Positions 6,306 to 14,240 of a DNA stretch of 25,868 bases are shown here, in pieces (the stretch's first letter is position 1; each line of letters starts with the position of its first letter). The notes beneath the pieces were generated by a model that searched no databases, was not told where the DNA came from, and worked only from the letters and a program-made list of their open reading frames with translations. This DNA comes from a virus. The translations under genes were made by a program, and so were the position numbers. The stretch covers positions 1 to 25,868 of the IMG/VR virus record IMGVR_UViG_3300022856_000031; one strand, 5' to 3'.

Positions 6306-8294
6306 ATGGCGACCTATGTAAACAATCTCCGGCTCAAAGAAATCGCCACAGGCGATGAGAGTGGCACTTGGGGCACCAGTACCAATACTAACCTTGAGCT
6401 GATTACCGACGGTTTTAGTTTTGGTACGAAGGACATGGCGGCAGACGCCAACGAAACCTTCACAATGCCTGATGCTACGGCGGACGACACCCGCTCGTTC
6501 TACTTAAAGATTACCTCTGCCGTATCACTTACAGCTACCCGCGAAGTTACCCTTGGCCCAAACACCATCTCTAAAGTGTGGATGATCGAGAACGCTACTT
6601 CCGGCAGCCAGATTATTACGATCAAGCAGGGTTCAGGCGCTACAGTCAACGTGGCTAGTGGCTCTAAGGTCATGATCGTCACAGACGGCGCGGGTGCAGG
6701 AGCTGCGGTTCTTAATGCTAACCCCACCGAAGTCGGCGGCACAGTAACAAGCGTAGGCGGCACTGGCACAGTAAACGGCATCTCACTGTCTGGCACGGTG
6801 ACTAGCTCAGGAGACCTAACTCTTGGCGGTACACTAGCTAACGTAGACTTGACCTCACAGGTTACGGGCACTTTGCCTATCGCTAACGGCGGTACCGGTG
6901 CCTCACTCACAGACCCAGAAGCCGACCGTATTTTATTCTGGGATGACTCTGCTGGGACGACTGCGTTCCTTACTGTGGGGTCGGGGCTTTCATTAAGCGG
7001 CACAACCCTATCTTCTACAGATGCAGGCGGCACGGTAACAAGCGTAGCGGTCTCTGGAGGCACAACGGGGCTAACTACGTCAGGCGGTCCTGTCACTGGT
7101 TCGGGCACAATTACTATTGCAGGCACGCTTGGCGAAGAAAACGGCGGTACGGGTTTAACGGGGTACACCACGGGCGACCTTCTGTATGCCAGTGGCACGG
7201 ACACTCTAGCTAAATTAGGTCTTGGTTCAGCCGCGCAAATATTGCAAGTTAACTCGGGCGGGACTCAAGTTGAGTGGGCAGATGGCGGCTCAAGAGTTGA
7301 AACAGTAACCCGTACTAGCAACACCATACTAGCGGCGGCTAATAACTCTAACTTTATAGACATCACTTCGGGTACGTTTACGCAAACATTTACCTCTGCG
7401 GCGACGCTAGGAAATGGGTGGTTTTGCTATATAAGAAACAGCGGCACTGGCGATATAACCCTAGACCCTGCTGGAAGCGAGACAATAGATGGGCTTACAA
7501 CTTTTAAGATGTACCCGCAAGAAGTACGCCTTATAAAGTCTGATGGCACCAACCTAACAAGCACGGTTTTAACTAGTTTTTACAAGACATTTACTGCTAC
7601 AGGAACTTTTACAAAACCACCCGGCTATGCTTCTCTCGCAGGAATGCTATGGGGTGGAGGTGGCGCAGGTGGACTTTCTAGCTCCACGGGAGAAAGCCAC
7701 GGGGGCGGAGGTGCGTGTAACTTATTCAATGTTCCCAGTTCAACACTATCAGCCTCCTCCTCTGTAGTTATTGGAGCGGGGGGAGCAGGTCAAACAGTAG
7801 CCGGATCAGCGGCGGATACTGGGGGCACCTCTTCTTTAGACAGCAAAATATACGCGTATGGCGGAGGCGGCGGCGTAACTAACGCTTACGGAGACAACGA
7901 TGTATCGGGAGGCGGCGGAGGCGGCGTTTCTTCTGCGGGCGCACCAGCCTTTGCTACTACGGGCTCTAACGCTCAGAGTGCAGGAGGCAAACCAAATCCT
8001 TCAATTGGTCTAGATAATTCCGGCTTTGGTGGCGCGTCAAGTGCGGTTTCCATAGTCGGCGAGGCTTACGCGGGCGGAGGAGCAGGCGCAGGAGAAAACG
8101 CCTCTACAGGCGGAAATTCTGTATACGGCGGTGGCGGTGGGGGAGATACCACAGGCGGAACCTCTATTTTTGGTGGAGACGGCGGTTCTTCGGGGGGTGA
8201 TGGAGTAATCCCCGCAGGTGGCGGGTCTGGATCGGGGACTTCTCCTTCTGGCGCAGGCGCTAGGGGCGAGTTAAGAATTTGGGGTATCGTATAA
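6306..8294 (+). CDS. Tail fibre/adhesin with glycine-rich tip
   Basis: The protein has 662 residues. The N-terminus (NNLRLKEIATGDESGTWGTS, then TNTNLELI) is the virion-anchoring domain typical of this marine-phage fibre type. The middle is beta-rich with repeats such as GGTVTSVGGTGTVNGISLSG and VTGTLPIANGGTGASL. From about residue 427 (KTFTATGTFTKPPGYASLAG) it becomes a glycine-rich domain with many GGGGG runs, ending in GELRIWGIV. This resembles the Gly-rich receptor-binding domains likened to T-even gp38 adhesins with polyglycine-II packing. The next gene is a tail assembly chaperone overlapping by one base, which supports the adhesin role. Receptor specificity cannot be inferred. Confidence 0.82.
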   Translation: MATYVNNLRLKEIATGDESGTWGTSTNTNLELITDGFSFGTKDMAADANETFTMPDATADDTRSFYLKITSAVSLTATREVTLGPNTISKVWMIENATSGSQIITIKQGSGATVNVASGSKVMIVTDGAGAGAAVLNANPTEVGGTVTSVGGTGTVNGISLSGTVTSSGDLTLGGTLANVDLTSQVTGTLPIANGGTGASLTDPEADRILFWDDSAGTTAFLTVGSGLSLSGTTLSSTDAGGTVTSVAVSGGTTGLTTSGGPVTGSGTITIAGTLGEENGGTGLTGYTTGDLLYASGTDTLAKLGLGSAAQILQVNSGGTQVEWADGGSRVETVTRTSNTILAAANNSNFIDITSGTFTQTFTSAATLGNGWFCYIRNSGTGDITLDPAGSETIDGLTTFKMYPQEVRLIKSDGTNLTSTVLTSFYKTFTATGTFTKPPGYASLAGMLWGGGGAGGLSSSTGESHGGGGACNLFNVPSSTLSASSSVVIGAGGAGQTVAGSAADTGGTSSLDSKIYAYGGGGGVTNAYGDNDVSGGGGGGVSSAGAPAFATTGSNAQSAGGKPNPSIGLDNSGFGGASSAVSIVGEAYAGGGAGAGENASTGGNSVYGGGGGGDTTGGTSIFGGDGGSSGGDGVIPAGGGSGSGTSPSGAGARGELRIWGIV

Positions 8295-8683: not shown

Positions 8684-8923
8684 ATGAATCTTGAAGATCT
8701 ACCTATTGAGATGCAGCAACAAATAGCGATGCAGAAAGCTATAGATGAAAACCGAAACGCCGCTGTAAAGGAGCTTGACGACAAACGTGCAAAACATGAC
8801 GCAGTGCGTATGGCAAAAGACGTTGTTATGGAAAACCACCGTTCGTCTCCTCCGGGAACAGTGATTACTTCGGAAAATATAACTTCTATAGCGGAAGACT
8901 TGATTCAAACTATGAATAACTAG
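8684..8923 (+). CDS. Small helical protein of unknown function
   Basis: The protein has 79 residues and is mostly charged. It begins MNLEDLPIEMQQQIAMQKAI, with NRNAAVKELDDKRAKHDAVR likely to form a helix or coiled coil, and ends with ITSIAEDLIQTMNN. No Cys, membrane helix or signal is present. The strong upstream AGGAGG and the following gene starting 1 base after its stop show it belongs to the same operon. I do not recognise a named family. Its position between the chaperone and the oxygenase genes leaves open a fibre-assembly or accessory role. Confidence 0.65.
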   Translation: MNLEDLPIEMQQQIAMQKAIDENRNAAVKELDDKRAKHDAVRMAKDVVMENHRSSPPGTVITSENITSIAEDLIQTMNN

Positions 8924-8924
8924 C

Positions 8925-9503
8925 ATGGAGTCCTATGCTTATTTTTCATCGCCCATATACCGTGAAGAGCGGTCAGAGTGGGTAGAGCAAACCCTAAAGC
9001 ATACGCAGAAATACTACGAACAAATAGAGCCGCGTGTAGTCAAACAAACGGGGCCTATGTCAAATGACCCTGACCTTGGGTACTTAACGTCCTACTTTCG
9101 AGACAAAGGCGTTAGTATTTTAAAGGAGCAGGGTTATTTAACAGATGAGTATGAGTTTTACGTGGATGGGATGTGGGGGCAAGAGTTTGCGTGTACGGGC
9201 AGTAACATTATGCACGTTCATGGAGACAGCCAAATATCAGGGTTCTATTTCCTAGAAGTGCCCGAAGGCGGGTCGTACCCCATATTTGATGACCCTAGAC
9301 CGGGTAAGCGAATGGCGGATTTGTGGGCATCGCCTAGCAACCAAGTTACAATGGCTACGCCGCAGATACACTTTAACAATGTTCAAGCCGGAACCATGAT
9401 GTTATTTAACTCGTGGCTGCCGCACATGATTACGCCAAACCAATCTAATAATTCGACAAAGTTTATACACTTTATTTTGTCGCAAAGAAAAAGGTTTATT
9501 TAA
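8925..9503 (+). CDS. Putative 2OG-Fe(II) oxygenase (first of four)
   Basis: The 192-residue protein resembles the small 2OG-Fe(II) oxygenase family with an HxH(P/G)xxxxSGxYY motif. Here H97-V-H99-G-D101 precedes SGFYFLEVPEGG, then FDDPRPGK and TMMLFNSWLPH167MITPN. H99/D101 (or H97) and H167 are the likely iron ligands on a double-stranded beta-helix. The residue expected to anchor 2-oxoglutarate, usually Arg about ten residues after the distal His, appears as K179 (STKFIHFIL). Members hydroxylate proteins or small molecules; the substrate is unknown. It heads a run of four oxygenase-like genes and overlaps the next by one base. Family confident, activity not tested. Confidence 0.78.
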   Translation: MESYAYFSSPIYREERSEWVEQTLKHTQKYYEQIEPRVVKQTGPMSNDPDLGYLTSYFRDKGVSILKEQGYLTDEYEFYVDGMWGQEFACTGSNIMHVHGDSQISGFYFLEVPEGGSYPIFDDPRPGKRMADLWASPSNQVTMATPQIHFNNVQAGTMMLFNSWLPHMITPNQSNNSTKFIHFILSQRKRFI

Positions 9504-10087
9504 TGCAGCATATGCTGACGCCGTATTCTAGGAAGATAGAGCCGTTTGCGTGGTGGGAAGGGGCTTTCACTGAAAAAGAACTGGACTGGTTGCAACAAAA
9601 AGCCAGAGAGGCAAACACCCCTGCTCAAATAGGCGGCGGGGGGAACGGCTTAATTAACTCAGAAATAAGACGCTCTGAATTAAACTGGCTGCCTAAAAAC
9701 GAAAATACTGCTTGGGTTTTTGAAAAGATTGCCCATGTAGTATCTAGCTTAAATGCGGACTATTTTAATTTTAATTTAACAGCTCTGTCCGAGGAGCTAC
9801 AGTTAACAAACTACCATGAAAACAATAAAGGCATGTATGGGTGGCACCAAGATTTTGGAAGTCCGGGTAATAGCAGAAAAATGTCTGTAGTTTTGCAATT
9901 ATCTGACCCACAAGAATACGAGGGGGGTCAGCTACAGCTCTTCACCTCTAAAAACCCGACTAACATCGAAAAGAAGAGAGGCTTGATTGTAGTATTCCCT
10001 TCTTGGACGGTGCATCAGGTAACTCCCGTAGTAAAGGGAACAAGACAAACATTAGTTACATGGATTTCGGGGCCATCATTCACATGA
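9503..10087 (+). CDS. Prolyl-4-hydroxylase-like 2OG-Fe(II) oxygenase
   Basis: The 194-residue protein has a complete canonical active site: H115-Q-D117 (MYGWHQDFGS), distal H171 (FPSWTVHQVTPV) and R181 (GTRQTLVTWISGP), the residue expected to bind the 2-oxoglutarate carboxylate. The order and spacing match the P4H/PKHD-type hydroxylases. The N-terminal half is helical, and the jelly-roll core runs from about residue 95 to the end. The start overlaps the previous stop (TAATG) and the stop overlaps the next start (ATGA), so it is embedded in one operon. The protein or small-molecule substrate is not known. This is the most clearly intact of the four enzymes. Confidence 0.85.
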   Translation: MQHMLTPYSRKIEPFAWWEGAFTEKELDWLQQKAREANTPAQIGGGGNGLINSEIRRSELNWLPKNENTAWVFEKIAHVVSSLNADYFNFNLTALSEELQLTNYHENNKGMYGWHQDFGSPGNSRKMSVVLQLSDPQEYEGGQLQLFTSKNPTNIEKKRGLIVVFPSWTVHQVTPVVKGTRQTLVTWISGPSFT

Positions 10088-10680
10088 CTTCAGACTACAA
10101 AGACTTTATTGGTGTTTTTTCAGATGTGTACCCCGAAGGGTTCTGCGAGCATTTAATAGCCGAGTTTGACCGACACCGTAGTTTTGGGGCTGGAAGAAAT
10201 AGGCAGGACGGAGAGGGCGCACCTAAAGACCGTAAAGACGACTATCAAATTTGTTATAATGGAAGACAGAGTAGCTTTGAAGATTTTAACGGTACGCCCG
10301 CTAGAGATTTATTTTTTAAGGGCTTACAGCATTGTTTTGACCAGTATGTAAATGAGTTTTCTGCTTTGAAAACTGTAGACGTAAAGTGCGACAACATGAA
10401 AATGCAAAAGACCTCTTCTGGCGGGGGATACCATATTTGGCATTCTGAACAAGGCAACGGAGAGATGGCTAACCGAGGACTTGTGTATACGCTTTACCTC
10501 AACACCTTACCGGAGGGAGCAAACGGAGAAACCGAGTTTTTATATCAGCAAAGACGGCTCAACCCCATAGAAAACACTATGGTGCTGTGGCCCGCCGCGT
10601 ACACCCACGTACACAGAGGCAACCCTGTTCACGGAGATAACCACAAATACATCGTTACTGGGTGGTTCTACCATGAGTAA
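10084..10680 (+). CDS. Putative 2OG-Fe(II) oxygenase with HxE variant
   Basis: I choose ATG 10084 because it overlaps the upstream TGA as ATGA, giving 198 residues; the frame is open further upstream but that would overlap the previous gene by 85 bases. The core reads GGGYHIWHSEQ with H120-S-E122, LVYTLYLNTLPEG, GETEFLYQQRRL, WPAAYTHVHRGNPVH with H175/H177, and HKYIVTGWFYH. This resembles a 2OG-Fe(II) oxygenase type I know from cyanophages. The acidic iron ligand appears to be Glu rather than the usual Asp, and K188 may anchor the cosubstrate. HxE ligands are known in clavaminate synthase-like enzymes. Substrate unknown. Confidence 0.75.
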   Translation: MTSDYKDFIGVFSDVYPEGFCEHLIAEFDRHRSFGAGRNRQDGEGAPKDRKDDYQICYNGRQSSFEDFNGTPARDLFFKGLQHCFDQYVNEFSALKTVDVKCDNMKMQKTSSGGGYHIWHSEQGNGEMANRGLVYTLYLNTLPEGANGETEFLYQQRRLNPIENTMVLWPAAYTHVHRGNPVHGDNHKYIVTGWFYHE

Positions 10681-11254
10681 TTTAGACAAATTAGGCTATT
10701 TAAAGGTAGTAGGGCTAATAGATGCACAGACTATTGCAACGGTTTCTCAGTATTTTGAAAACAAAATTAACAGAGGCGAGTGGAAGCAAAAAGGAATAGA
10801 GGACTACGATAGCAGCAAACTAGGCTATTACGCAGACCCTCTAATAGAAGTACTATTAAAAGCTTGCCTTCCAGTTATAGAAAAAGAAACAGGGCTATCT
10901 TTAGAGCCAACTTATTCGTTTAGTCGAGTATACCAAGAAGGCGAAGAGCTAAAGCCGCACATTGATAGGCCCGCTTGTGAAATAAGCGTCACGGTTAACG
11001 TAGCCTGTACTATGAGCGAGCCTTGGCCTATATGGATGCAGTACAAAAACCACGACCCTGTAAAATGCCTGCTAAATCCGGGTGACGCGGTTATATACAA
11101 AGGATGCGAGTCCACTCATTGGAGAAGGCCGCTTGAGGAAGGCGCTATTAACCCGCAGTTTATGCTGCACTATGTAACAAAAGAAGGCCCTAATGCCTCC
11201 CATAAGTTTGATAAAAGACCGTCTTTAGGTTTAGACGAATCGTGTAGGAGTTAA
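10673..11254 (+). CDS. Divergent 2OG-Fe(II) oxygenase-like protein
   Basis: The 193-residue protein carries H96-I-D98 (EELKPHIDRPACEISVTVNV) and distal H149 (GDAVIYKGCESTHWRRPL), consistent with the iron-binding facial triad on a jelly-roll fold. Where an Arg or Lys is usually found after the distal His, the sequence reads INPQFMLHYV, so cosubstrate binding is uncertain. It could be an active divergent enzyme or one using R151/R152. The gene overlaps the preceding one by 8 bases and is followed 3 bases later by the collagen-like adhesin gene. That adjacency raises, but does not prove, the possibility that the adhesin is a substrate. Confidence 0.7.
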   Translation: MSNLDKLGYLKVVGLIDAQTIATVSQYFENKINRGEWKQKGIEDYDSSKLGYYADPLIEVLLKACLPVIEKETGLSLEPTYSFSRVYQEGEELKPHIDRPACEISVTVNVACTMSEPWPIWMQYKNHDPVKCLLNPGDAVIYKGCESTHWRRPLEEGAINPQFMLHYVTKEGPNASHKFDKRPSLGLDESCRS

Positions 11255-11257
11255 GTC

Positions 11258-12436
11258 ATGCCTATTGGAACCGGAAAGGTAGGTTTATTTGGGGGCGGGG
11301 TCAGCGTAGAAGCTGGATGCCAAACCTTTAATTCTCCGGGAAATTTTATTGTGCCCGACGGGCTTTCTATTGTGTCTTTGAGCGGTAATGGGTCAACAGG
11401 AAATCCCGGCAATGCGGGCAACCCCGGAGGAGACGGCCCCGGAGGTAATGGCGGAAGCGGAGGCCCCGTTACAGACCCCGGAGGACCTAATTGGGCTTCA
11501 AATGTAAATACTATTACTGCGGGAACGGGGGGTACAGGTGCTGTAGGTAATCCTCCCGGCGGTCCGGGTAATCCGGGTAATCCGGGGGGGCCTACGTCCG
11601 CGTTGGGCTATAACTGGACTTGTGGTGCAGTAGGAAATGGGGGAACGGGCGGAGTCAATGGCGTTGTAGGCAATCCGGGTACTACAGGCAACACTGTTAA
11701 CGGAAATATCATATGCTCTTGCGCGGCCCCTCCGGGCGCGGGGGACACTGCTTTTGCCTACAGCAGTCTTAGCCCGGGAGGCACAGGAGCGTCTAACATC
11801 TGCGTATCACCACCCAACCAAAAGGGGGGAACGGGGGCTTACGGAATCGCAGGCGCCACACAATGCCAAGACCCTTGCGGTAAATATGCGTTTAAATTCA
11901 TACAAAATAACGCCTTTGGTGGCGGTGGTGGCAGCGGGCAATGCCGTCAAAGTGTTTCTTTTCCCGGGACTCTATGTGGCGGCTGTCCGTCTGGCCCTCC
12001 TTGGCCCTCTCTCTCAGTTCCGCCAGCGGGCATCCCTGCTTTTTTCCCCCAAGGAGGTTCGGGCAGGGGTGGCATAGGAAAAACTTCCGCAAGCCAAAAC
12101 ACTACTACTTCGAACCCGCAGCCCAACGGGACTAGTGCCAATGCATTTAACACCCCCATAGATTACGGCCAAGGAGGCGGCGGAGGCGGCGGAGGCGGAG
12201 CGACAACAGTCTTGCCTAACCAGTACTGCGGGCCACCCCCAGGAGTTGGTGCCCAAGCGTCTAGTGGCGGAGGTGGCGGTGGTATGGGTTCTTCTGGGAA
12301 TCCCGGCAGTGGTGCGGGAAATCCCGGCAGTGCGGGCACACCCGCCACCTATAATGGTGCCCCCGTGACGGCAGGTACATACCCCGTTTCAGTAGGTACT
12401 GGGGGTCAAATAACTATTTCTTGGAACGCTCAATAA
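11258..12436 (+). CDS. Collagen-like glycine-rich adhesin, Cys-rich
   Basis: The protein has 392 residues. The N-terminus (GCQTFNSPGNFIVPDGLSIV) and C-terminus (VTAGTYPVSVGTGGQITISW) match the ends of Gly-rich phage receptor-binding domains. Between them, residues 45-71 are nine uninterrupted Gly-X-Y triplets and residues 101-112 are four Gly-X-Pro triplets. Further GNP units occur at 138, 347 and 354, and poly-Gly runs at 305-314 and 337-342. Eleven Cys (21, 122, 153, 155, 182, 203, 207, 229, 240, 243, 324) are unusual for a phage adhesin and may form disulfides or bind metal. AGGAG at 11246-11250 supports the start. A chaperone gene follows one gene later. Confidence 0.75.
   Translation: MPIGTGKVGLFGGGVSVEAGCQTFNSPGNFIVPDGLSIVSLSGNGSTGNPGNAGNPGGDGPGGNGGSGGPVTDPGGPNWASNVNTITAGTGGTGAVGNPPGGPGNPGNPGGPTSALGYNWTCGAVGNGGTGGVNGVVGNPGTTGNTVNGNIICSCAAPPGAGDTAFAYSSLSPGGTGASNICVSPPNQKGGTGAYGIAGATQCQDPCGKYAFKFIQNNAFGGGGGSGQCRQSVSFPGTLCGGCPSGPPWPSLSVPPAGIPAFFPQGGSGRGGIGKTSASQNTTTSNPQPNGTSANAFNTPIDYGQGGGGGGGGGATTVLPNQYCGPPPGVGAQASSGGGGGGMGSSGNPGSGAGNPGSAGTPATYNGAPVTAGTYPVSVGTGGQITISWNAQ
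12173..12199 (+). repeat. Triplicated GGAGGCGG[C/A] microrepeat in adhesin
   Basis: Three consecutive 9-base units (ggaggcggc, ggaggcggc, ggaggcgga) encode the poly-Gly run at residues 306-314. Such a G-rich in-frame repeat is prone to replication slippage in multiples of 3 or 9 bases, which would change glycine-tip length without breaking the frame. Confidence 0.75.
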
Positions 12437-12438
12437 CT

Positions 12439-12969
12439 ATGGCAAACGCAAAGCAAAACTTAAAACAGCTTGACGAGCAAATATTAATAAAAATGAAAGA
12501 ACGTCAGTTAAAAGCTATGGCCCAAGAAGACAACCGCGCTCAGTCCATAACTATTGGAAACGCGGGCGGGGGTGTCACAGAAATAACTATGCGTGGGACT
12601 ACTGGGGGGTCCTTGTGGAATGTATACCAGCCCGTTGAGGTGGTAGAGCTTATAAACCAGCTTGCTGCAAACATAGGCTGCCATATACATATACACCCCA
12701 GAGAAGACTTTTCTAGTTGGAGGCAGTGGAAAGAAATTTCTGACGAGGAAAAAGAGCGGCTAAAGGGCTTCCCTCCTTTTTCTGAGCATATGGAAAGTGG
12801 TTTTAGGTTAGGTACAGGCTCCCCAGTCTTACCCAGCCAAAAAAATCAAGGTAGGGTAGAATTCAAAGAATGTGTAAAATTGAAGGTACAGGAGAACGAA
12901 GATGCGGTGGCAACTAAAAAAGCTGTCAACAAACGAACCCCTAAGCGAAGCCGGGCCACTACCAAATAA
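12439..12969 (+). CDS. Conserved phage protein of unknown function
   Basis: I take ATG 12439, two bases after the adhesin stop, giving 176 residues; a TTG at 12421 is in frame but overlaps the adhesin end. The N-terminal ~40 residues are a charged helix (EQILIKMKERQLKAMAQEDN). A compact segment follows: SITIGNAGGGVTEITMRGTT, then VEVVELINQLAANIGCHIHI, then HPREDFSSWRQW. The His-rich GCHIHIHPR might bind metal but this is speculation. The tail is Lys/Arg-rich. I recognise the middle from hypothetical proteins of marine and cyanophages encoded beside tail fibre genes. A role in adhesin assembly is an inference from its place between adhesin and chaperone. Confidence 0.65.
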   Translation: MANAKQNLKQLDEQILIKMKERQLKAMAQEDNRAQSITIGNAGGGVTEITMRGTTGGSLWNVYQPVEVVELINQLAANIGCHIHIHPREDFSSWRQWKEISDEEKERLKGFPPFSEHMESGFRLGTGSPVLPSQKNQGRVEFKECVKLKVQENEDAVATKKAVNKRTPKRSRATTK

Positions 12970-13279
12970 TTGGGGTCCTATTTTCGGTATGGAGAATATC
13001 CAAGACCAACTGGGGGACTTGACGTGGCTGGGCAAAACTTACGCCGATCAGGGCTGGGTGCAGGTAGAAGGTGAAACTTTAAAGCCTTCAAGTGAAGCCG
13101 ACATAGTTTGGGAAAAGGCCAAGCAGCTATTAAAAGACTCAGACTGGGCGGTTCTTCCTGACGTTATAATGTTTAAAGAACTAAAAGACGAATGGATAGA
13201 ATACCGTAAAGTTATTAGGGAGATACGAACTCAGTCGGGTTTTCCTACAAATGTATTTTGGCCTAAAAAGCCCGAGTGA
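12902..13279 (+). CDS. Second phage tail assembly chaperone-like protein
   Basis: The protein has 125 residues. The C-terminal half has the same signature as the 8294-8656 chaperone: LLKDSDWAVLPD, then WIEYRKVIREI, then GFPTNVFWPKKPE. The N-terminal half (LPNNWGPIFGMENIQDQLGD, then WVQVEG) is a different domain. The start is well supported by AGGAG at 12890-12894, 7 bases upstream, even though it lies 68 bases inside the preceding gene; the next in-frame ATG (12989) lacks such a site. Its likely client is the collagen-like adhesin at 11258. The stop overlaps the next GTG start. Confidence 0.75.
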   Translation: MRWQLKKLSTNEPLSEAGPLPNNWGPIFGMENIQDQLGDLTWLGKTYADQGWVQVEGETLKPSSEADIVWEKAKQLLKDSDWAVLPDVIMFKELKDEWIEYRKVIREIRTQSGFPTNVFWPKKPE

Positions 13280-13494
13280 AATACCGTATAAGGTTTAACA
13301 AATCTCGCGGACAGCCGGGCAGGGGTACAGAAGAGCACGTTTGGCGAGTGCTACAGGGTAATACAGAGTGGCTTGCACGGCATGTTATTATTGAGGTTCC
13401 GTCCAGAAGCGAACAAGAGGGGCCGGACTGGAACATGGTGTGCGAAGGAACCATGTTATTTTTTGACGACACAGACACAGTGGTAATTCAATGA
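13276..13494 (+). CDS. Small conserved phage protein of unknown function
   Basis: The 72-residue protein has a GTG start at 13276 overlapping the preceding TGA (GTGA). The sequence begins MKYRIRFNKSRGQPGRGTEE and continues HVWRVLQGNTEW and PDWNMVCEGTMLFFDDTDT. I associate this pattern with small hypothetical proteins of T4-like cyanophages, with no known function. It is compact and probably an alpha/beta fold, with one Cys and no membrane helix. It is coupled at its end to the sulfotransferase-like gene (ATGA). Whether it acts with that enzyme is unknown. Confidence 0.65.
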   Translation: MKYRIRFNKSRGQPGRGTEEHVWRVLQGNTEWLARHVIIEVPSRSEQEGPDWNMVCEGTMLFFDDTDTVVIQ

Positions 13495-14240
13495 TCATAT
13501 CTAACTCTCAGAACTTTGTAGTTACTCGCGCCCAAAGGTCTGCGGGAACTTCTCTAGAAATGTATATTATAGAATCTGGTTTGGTTGATTTCGAAAACGA
13601 TAGCTACACCCTAGAAGGGGGATTTAAGACTTGGGAAGAGTTTAAACAGTATAGTGCAGAAAACAATAACTTGAGGTATTCAGACCTGCCTGAAAGTTTA
13701 TACGGGGAAAGTCTAGATGAAGTACAAATTACTTTTGAGGACCTTGTAGCCCAAAACCGTATTTCTCCTGACATGCCCTGTATTGGGGGAATAAGGCATC
13801 CTTTAGAGTGGCTTGCTTCTTTATTTAATGCTGCAAACGTCAGAAGAAAAATAATGGCGCAAGCTAACCTAAAAAAATATGGGCGTTACTCAGAGATAGA
13901 TTTGTCTTTAGCTAAGGACTTTTCTACACCAGACGCGTCGTGTGACTTTGTACTTTCAAATTTAGATAACCCCCACGTAGCTATTAGCGTAAAAGACCAA
14001 GTGGAATATTACCCAGATCATGCTCAACTCTTTAATCTGGAAAACATTCATGAGCATGTGTGTCAGTTTATAAAGGACAAAGGGGGCAAGGTGCCAACAC
14101 AAAGAATAGCCCTGCGCTACAATGAGTATGACCCTACTTACTATATCTCAAATTTGTCGGCCGACAGGAAGCAAAACGTGCTGACGCGTCTGGAAAAAGA
14201 CCTAGTGGCATGGGAAAAAGCACATGCAAAGTTCAACTAA
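13491..14240 (+). CDS. Sulfotransferase-like protein
   Basis: The 249-residue protein has the two PAPS-binding signatures of sulfotransferases. Near the N-terminus, VVTRAQRSAGTSLEMYI resembles the 5'-phosphosulfate loop (R16-S-A-G-T-S21, with Arg where Lys is common). The segment CIGGIRHPLEWLASLFN has R102 and S110, the spacing of eight expected for the 3'-phosphate site. The C-terminal region (RYNEYDPTYYISNLSADRKQ) fits the lid region of related enzymes. It would transfer sulfate from PAPS to a hydroxyl on a sugar, peptide or small molecule; the acceptor is unknown. It ends the accessory island and precedes a 39-base gap before the lysis genes. Fold assignment is fairly good, activity inferred. 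Confidence 0.7.
   Translation: MIISNSQNFVVTRAQRSAGTSLEMYIIESGLVDFENDSYTLEGGFKTWEEFKQYSAENNNLRYSDLPESLYGESLDEVQITFEDLVAQNRISPDMPCIGGIRHPLEWLASLFNAANVRRKIMAQANLKKYGRYSEIDLSLAKDFSTPDASCDFVLSNLDNPHVAISVKDQVEYYPDHAQLFNLENIHEHVCQFIKDKGGKVPTQRIALRYNEYDPTYYISNLSADRKQNVLTRLEKDLVAWEKAHAKFN

Follow-up and report, generated by a model that had tools for sequence, protein, structure and literature searches.

A phage gene cassette that couples prolyl 4-hydroxylase-like oxygenases to a glycine-rich adhesin, a candidate maturation system for a receptor-binding protein

Few auxiliary genes are as common in marine phages as those for 2-oxoglutarate (2OG)- and Fe(II)-dependent oxygenases (PMC12774648). How viruses use prolyl 4-hydroxylase (P4H) "remains cryptic" according to a study of the Baltic Sea (PMC9301287), which cites work that reports hydroxyproline in viral proteins. 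A survey of 2026 highlighted PHROG 61, a family of such phage enzymes that is abundant in marine phages, for its structural likeness to human EGLN3 and proposed no substrate (PMC12774648). Viral and bacterial collagens described earlier carry proline mostly at the X position of their Gly-X-Y repeats, a bias that the authors blame on the lack of a prolyl hydroxylase; in the phage and prophage fibres of the EPclA type, proline stands at 48.1% at X and 7.4% at Y (PMC3368898). Here we describe a cassette in the linear IMG/VR virus record IMGVR_UViG_3300022856_000031 (25,868 bases, all of which is referred to as the window). Its genes follow the order orf8684, ox1, ox2, ox3, ox4, adhesin, X, chaperone, orf13276 and sulfotransferase, so that four coupled 2OG-Fe(II) oxygenase genes (positions 8925 to 11254) directly precede the gene for a Gly-rich adhesin, their proposed substrate.

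The chlorovirus PBCV-1 encodes its own 2OG-dependent prolyl hydroxylase (5c5t), as is proposed for the window, and of all PDB entries this enzyme is the one that the ox3 profile matches best, if weakly (E 0.014); PBCV-1 is a virus of eukaryotic algae, and we know of no fixed adhesin–enzyme gene pair in it. By profile, ox2 and ox3 both belong to PHROG 61, but most relatives examined here are unlinked to this adhesin. The T-even adhesin gp38 of Salmonella phage S16 shares with the present protein a Gly-rich tip, variable segments and a fibre-gene neighbourhood. By contrast, the 20 kb around S16 gp38 contain no oxygenase gene, Gly-X-Y triplets are much scarcer in the gp38 family, Asn-Pro-Gly is not in excess there, and the records examined contain no separate neighbour of the X or APC type. 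EPclA-type proteins likewise have Gly-X-Y repeats in a tail fibre, whereas the proline bias of the adhesins described here is the opposite, at Y. Mimivirus, a giant amoebal virus, also carries collagen-like proteins together with enzymes that modify them, but the enzymes named there serve lysyl modification and glycosylation rather than being a P4H coupled to a tail adhesin (PMC9546862). Each component of the cassette is of a known kind, while the pairing of P4H-like enzymes with an adhesin in a phage seems to be new; a literature search with subscription journals and preprints outside its scope found no paper describing it.

To follow the cassette beyond the window, about 300 IMG/VR loci (L numbers below) were fetched using ox2, ox3, ox4, the sulfotransferase-like gene and X as separate baits, and all were annotated with profiles built from first-round relatives. 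X is the fairest bait because it is neither an oxygenase nor an adhesin, and the loci that it recovered had a Gly-rich open reading frame (ORF) and an oxygenase upstream wherever the sequence extended far enough. Among the 136 distinct complete Gly-rich ORFs found upstream of X, 133 were preceded by 500 nt or more of sequence; in 132 of these 133 an oxygenase gene lay immediately 5′ of the adhesin (ox4 in 71, ox3 in 60 and ox2 in one). The sole exception was the first of two tandem adhesin–X–chaperone copies in L208. Whereas type I loci resemble the window, type II loci have the order ox3, adhesin, X, chaperone, with relatives of ox2 and ox4 mostly 3′ of the chaperone; ox3 is the core enzyme of the module and is present in nearly every one.

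The loci are related to one another, and these counts are not independent trials. The stronger argument for linkage comes from the phylogeny of ox3 and from the spread of the module over phage types. When 74 ox3 representatives were placed in a maximum-likelihood tree, the adhesin-linked enzymes formed one clade (support 100/94). Within it 47 of 48 members were scored as linked, and the remaining one (L207) has X and an adhesin slightly below the 26% glycine threshold; outside it, none of the 26 representatives was linked. Linked podoviruses carry needle and neck genes, and a linked contig of 207,655 bases is T4-like (gp23 at 3.7e-150, plus a tail sheath), indicating that the module crosses tail morphologies. 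An earlier, sequence-only reading of the window had asked whether oxygenases co-occur with Gly-X-Pro adhesins, and their position immediately upstream, carried by a single ox3 clade, answers that they do. The same reading would have been undermined by oxygenases occurring freely without the adhesin: distant ox3 relatives (about 40% identity) in cyanophages do so, but close ones do not.

The adhesin of the window consists of 28% Gly and 11% Pro. Compared with shuffled sequences, it contains 16 Pro-Gly (12.0 in shuffles), 7 Asn-Pro-Gly (1.1) and 52 G..G (29), figures computed on the L002 copy, which is equal in length and composition. Alignment of the adhesins revealed a fairly conserved N-terminus, a variable middle and a C-terminal end of the SYPV type. 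Over all 136 adhesins, G..G was 1.74-fold and Pro-Gly 1.49-fold as frequent as in shuffles, Gly-Pro only 0.36-fold, and Asn-Pro-Gly 7.3-fold (939 versus 129). Gly-X-Y runs of at least four triplets numbered 560 in 103 adhesins, the longest being 48, and within such runs proline made up about 2% of X and 18% of Y. Over the 136 proteins, proline occupied Y 1177 times and X 147 times in Gly-X-Y runs, and Y was ahead in 129 proteins and X in two. The most collagen-like example found, a protein of 1091 aa with 73 Asn-Pro-Gly (L214:8612-11887), is encoded immediately 3′ of ox3. As controls, eleven T-even gp38 adhesins had 2 Asn-Pro-Gly versus 2 expected (1.0-fold), Gly-rich ORFs elsewhere in the fetched contigs had a proline Y:X ratio of 46:33, and the C-terminal 242 aa of adh1, a second fibre of the window, had 30% Gly, one Pro-Gly and no Asn-Pro-Gly. 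Because the Gly-X-Y runs are mostly short and interrupted, packed polyglycine-II/polyproline-II helices seem likelier for the adhesin than a collagen triple helix. Its structure model (pLDDT 70.2, pTM 0.62) is mostly neither helix nor strand; the top Foldseek row, the Bxb1 tail tip, had a probability of only 0.06 and was rejected as not significant.

The catalytic residues of the four enzymes are conserved, with one qualification for ox1. This protein passes the cut-off of PF13759 (50.2 bits, 3.5e-13), matches phrog_81 (5e-25) and falls slightly below the cut-off of TIGR02466 (62.1 bits). Its H97-x-H99 and H167 are kept in 91 of 91 homologues and the second ligand position has no invariant acid (D101 in 44 of 91), so that ox1 is atypical among the four in having invariant histidines but not an invariant acid. 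ox2 passes the cut-off of PF13640 (63.9 bits, 2.8e-17), and its H115-x-D117, H171 and R181 are conserved in all 102 homologues; in profile searches of the PDB it is closer to PKHD/PiuC enzymes, matching a PKHD-type hydroxylase at 2.5e-11 and a bacterial P4H at about 1e-4. ox3 also passes PF13640 (42.5 bits, 1.3e-10), with H120-x-E122, H175/H177 and K188 conserved in all 128 homologues. V182 is equally invariant and a Trp belongs to the 90% consensus, giving the context H...V.G...K...W, in which the Lys about 10 residues past the distal His resembles the 2OG-binding Lys of prolyl 4-hydroxylases. ox4 had no Pfam match but matches phrog_2954 at 1.4e-46, and its H96-x-D98...H149 is kept in 70 of 70 homologues; three relatives weakly reach PF13532, and weak PhyH matches also occur among relatives. 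On the PHROG match, the weak matches of relatives and the conserved ligands, ox4 is a predicted 2OG-Fe(II) oxygenase, and the phrog_2954 name "ferrochelatase" is probably a misannotation. These family matches and ligand motifs, with the coordinates and overlaps given below, bear out the earlier observation of four consecutive coupled oxygenase genes ahead of a Gly-rich adhesin.

Some further observations concern these families. PHROG 2954 and 3531 are both named "ferrochelatase", and the name has been copied into public phage records, while the proteins resemble HxD...H 2OG-Fe(II) oxygenases. In L027 (10001-11170), ox2 and ox3 are fused into a single ORF of 389 aa directly before the adhesin. 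Many marine contigs (L127-L191) carry relatives of ox2, ox1 and ox4 in this order as a trio directly 5′ of the needle/stabilisation gene (N). No Gly-rich adhesin accompanies the trio, and HTVC023P has a comparable set.

The presence of ox4 varied together with the composition of the adhesin. In 91 type I loci, adhesin proline averaged 8.60% with ox4 nearby and 6.75% without it. Using the ox3 + X tree as a control, the ox4 effect was +1.52 Pro per 100 adhesin residues (p 0.0008); it was +1.94 when locus GC was added as a covariate (p 7e-8, fitted lambda 0), and under full Brownian correlation the association had p 0.016-0.017. Among the 20 residues, Pro showed the strongest association with ox4, and after phylogenetic correction total proline alone kept its tie. 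The other cassette proteins tested showed no difference in proline (p 0.9). We regard this covariation as suggestive.

From gene order, linkage, motif statistics and conserved catalytic residues, all of them observed, we infer a substrate, a modified residue, an order of events and a benefit, as follows. The cassette would be a dedicated maturation system of a receptor-binding tail protein: on balance it is probable, judging from sequence comparison, that hydroxylation of Pro, and possibly also of Asn, by phage-encoded enzymes matures the polyglycine/collagen-like adhesin. The adhesin would be built from Gly-X-Y stretches, typically Gly-Asn-Pro-Gly, that likely form packed polyglycine-II/polyproline-II helices bearing variable loops. 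Late in infection, in the host cytoplasm, the P4H-like ox3 would hydroxylate Y-position proline (X-Pro-Gly) of the adhesin, and ox4, where present, would act on further adhesin prolines; ox1 and ox2 may hydroxylate other Pro or Asn residues or act on fibre proteins that are partners of the adhesin. The added hydroxyl groups would make the helices more stable or adjust how the adhesin contacts its receptor, after which X and the chaperone would fold and mount the adhesin, the sulfotransferase being an optional extra. In the sequence-only reading, virion modification meant hydroxylation and perhaps subsequent sulfation; the tie between oxygenases and adhesin has held up, through the upstream position, the ox3 clade, the Y-position proline and the ox4–proline association, and the sulfation has not.

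Several observations weigh against adhesin hydroxylation. The likeness of ox3 to 5c5t is weak, as noted above, and the adhesin model (pLDDT 70) had no Foldseek PDB match at E <= 0.001. In gp38, proline is also found at Y, 7 versus 0 in few triplets, so the Y preference alone is not taken as proof of hydroxylation; polyglycine-II geometry may favour Y-position proline without it. The ox4–proline test was chosen after looking at the data and is exploratory, and of twelve independent sister pairs 8 favour the link (Wilcoxon p 0.08). An association of ox4 with Asn-Pro-Gly, striking in the first 29 adhesins, had p 0.04 in a larger mixed set and was lost under phylogenetic correction without the GC covariate. 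Finally, relatives of ox3 with about 40% identity occur in other surroundings: in S-CAM8 one is flanked by Dam and the clamp loader, another sits beside CP12 and cpeT in S-SSM5, and in S-RSM4 (L345) and ACG-2014i (L344) an ox3-like gene directly follows a long fibre gene and precedes a gene for a protein with a chaperone-like segment. These varied cyanophage placements imply that the oxygenase family has several settings and that the tie to the adhesin is particular to the present ox3 clade. The fibres beside the oxygenase in S-RSM4 and ACG-2014i have no Gly-X-Y, and no Gly-rich adhesin is present; from this gene order, the oxygenases may modify other fibres too.

Such placements away from adhesins, one of them between Dam and the clamp loader, are what would be expected if the oxygenases modified the host surface, metabolites or nucleic acids (AlkB-like repair, lipopolysaccharide (LPS) or lipid hydroxylation) and were carried along since host-range genes move together. 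The PKHD/PiuC likeness of ox2 and the DNA-repair role guessed for cyanophage P4H-domain proteins (PMC2984593) point the same way. However, a freely carried gene is not expected to adjoin a single type of adhesin 132 times out of 133 and across a clade of linked enzymes, nor should ox4 then predict adhesin proline, and we consider a host target unlikely.

It is quite unlikely, in our estimate, that the enzymes act on a cassette partner (X, the chaperone, orf13276 or the upstream fibre) instead of the Gly-X-Y stretches of the adhesin. X is linked as tightly as the adhesin, and the S-RSM4 and ACG-2014i oxygenases adjoin a fibre gene without a Gly-rich adhesin, but the partners tested lack a proline trend with ox4 and the strong X-Pro-Gly signature is found in the adhesin alone.

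The sulfotransferase-like gene foreseen by the sequence-only reading is confirmed at the family level: PF03567 is matched by 9 of 16 homologues (best 1.4e-7), but not by the copy in the window taken singly. The family consensus contains PKTGGTS and RHP..W.ASLY, with R102 and S110 invariant; in the window the 5′ loop has drifted to AQRSAGTS. The family profile aligns across both motifs with heparan sulfate 2-O-sulfotransferase, weakly (E 0.14), and matches to hemocyanin were judged to be due to chance. The family is real and the gene is an optional accessory: of the 64 type I loci that could be tested, 30 have it, and none of the listed type II loci does. Some cassettes carry two tandem sulfotransferase-like genes (L015:8236-9695, L020:12692-14151), the second about 31% identical to the window copy. 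Two-step modification of the adhesin could be read from the overlap of this gene with the operon end and from the slightly higher Asp and Thr and lower Arg of adhesins accompanied by it. Against this stand its patchy distribution, the loci with two copies, and adhesin Tyr, which is no higher where the gene is present; sulfation is unsupported, and the two-step scheme is distinctly improbable.

Very unlikely, finally, is a purely structural Asn-Pro-Gly (polyglycine-II capping) in an old inherited module without functional link, which could appeal to the two Asn-Pro-Gly of S16 gp38 without such an enzyme nearby and to the Y-position proline in the few gp38 triplets, but the gp38 homologues as a group lack Asn-Pro-Gly enrichment, the linkage persists through sequence divergence and podovirus-like/T4-like transfer, and the active-site residues are all still conserved.

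For one large oxygenase group the module points to a specific substrate that can be tested, namely the product of the adjacent adhesin gene. It also contradicts the explanation that Y-position proline is missing from viral collagen-like proteins for want of viral prolyl hydroxylases (PMC3368898). If adhesin hydroxylation is correct, host recognition would depend partly on the oxygen, iron and 2-oxoglutarate of the infected cell, and recombinant adhesins produced without these enzymes would be incomplete. For the broader proposal, that many marine phages possess a private prolyl-hydroxylation pathway and a hydroxyproline-containing collagen-like receptor-binding protein, with one enzyme–substrate–chaperone cassette inherited across phage types, we see an even chance. 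The adhesin would then be the first virion protein of a bacteriophage to have a hydroxylase system dedicated to it, and part of the abundant "prolyl 4-hydroxylase" auxiliary genes of marine viromes would be accounted for.

Table 1. Features of the cassette and of the control fibre in the window
Feature	Coordinates	Strand	Description
orf8684 (z)	8684..8923	+	79 aa, small conserved protein opening the type I cassette; precedes ox1 in most type I loci
ox1	8925..9503	+	PF13759/TIGR02466-type 2OG-Fe(II) oxygenase
ox2	9503..10087	+	PKHD/PiuC-type 2OG-Fe(II) oxygenase
ox3	10084..10680	+	P4H-like 2OG-Fe(II) oxygenase; core adhesin-linked enzyme
ox4	10673..11254	+	Divergent predicted 2OG-Fe(II) oxygenase
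adhesin (adh2)	11258..12436	+	392 aa, Gly-rich Gly-X-Y protein; proposed substrate
X	12439..12969	+	176 aa counted from the ATG that follows the adhesin stop codon; conserved, undescribed
apc2	12989..13279	+	Tail-fibre assembly chaperone
orf13276 (y)	13276..13494	+	72 aa, small protein, strongly conserved
sulfotransferase-like	13491..14240	+	Optional accessory gene
adh1	6306..8294	+	Second fibre, C-terminal part Gly-rich; internal control

The genes of the operon are tightly packed (Table 1), adjacent ones overlapping by 1-8 nt or being separated by 1-19 nt. From ox1 to ox4 the successive overlaps measure 1, 4 and 8 nt, and a gap of 3 nt lies between ox4 and the adhesin. Terminator-like sites inside the operon numbered 10 versus 7.2 expected, which is close to chance. 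Starts were corrected for ox3 (10084), X (most likely 12439; the ORF opens with TTG at 12421) and the chaperone (most likely 12989; the ORF opens at 12902). In one contig (L032:8311-10563 and L326), the ox2–ox3 half is opposite in strand to the X–chaperone half, through an inversion or an assembly artefact.

A chaperone had been placed directly after the adhesin by the sequence-only reading. The chaperone is there (PF16778 at 1.8e-12, phrog_4912 at 1e-13), but X lies between the two. X had no match in Pfam, PHROG or NCBIfam, and its structure model is of low confidence (pTM 0.35). Two profiles detected 326 and 215 relatives in IMG/VR, with a Gly-rich ORF upstream wherever the sequence extended far enough, and X can serve well as a marker for adhesins of this type. 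Neither X nor the sulfotransferase yielded a relative among named phages; one X relative lies on an 11.6 kb contig of a bacterial metagenome-assembled genome (MAG), possibly a phage contig that was binned with the MAG. orf13276 is conserved across type I cassettes (phmmer E of about 1e-20 to 1e-50) and had no family in Pfam or PHROGs, and orf8684 had no confident family in either.

No near DNA match to the window was found among named phages, and no RNA family or tRNA was found within it. Elsewhere the window encodes two SU10-type neck adaptor proteins, fibres, a holin, a lysozyme and a needle/stabilisation-type protein, and it is a virion block of a P22/SU10-like short-tailed phage. By the needle/stabilisation-type protein, its closest named relatives are DSL-LC04 (67% identity) and the Pelagibacter phages HTVC027P (41%) and HTVC023P (36%).

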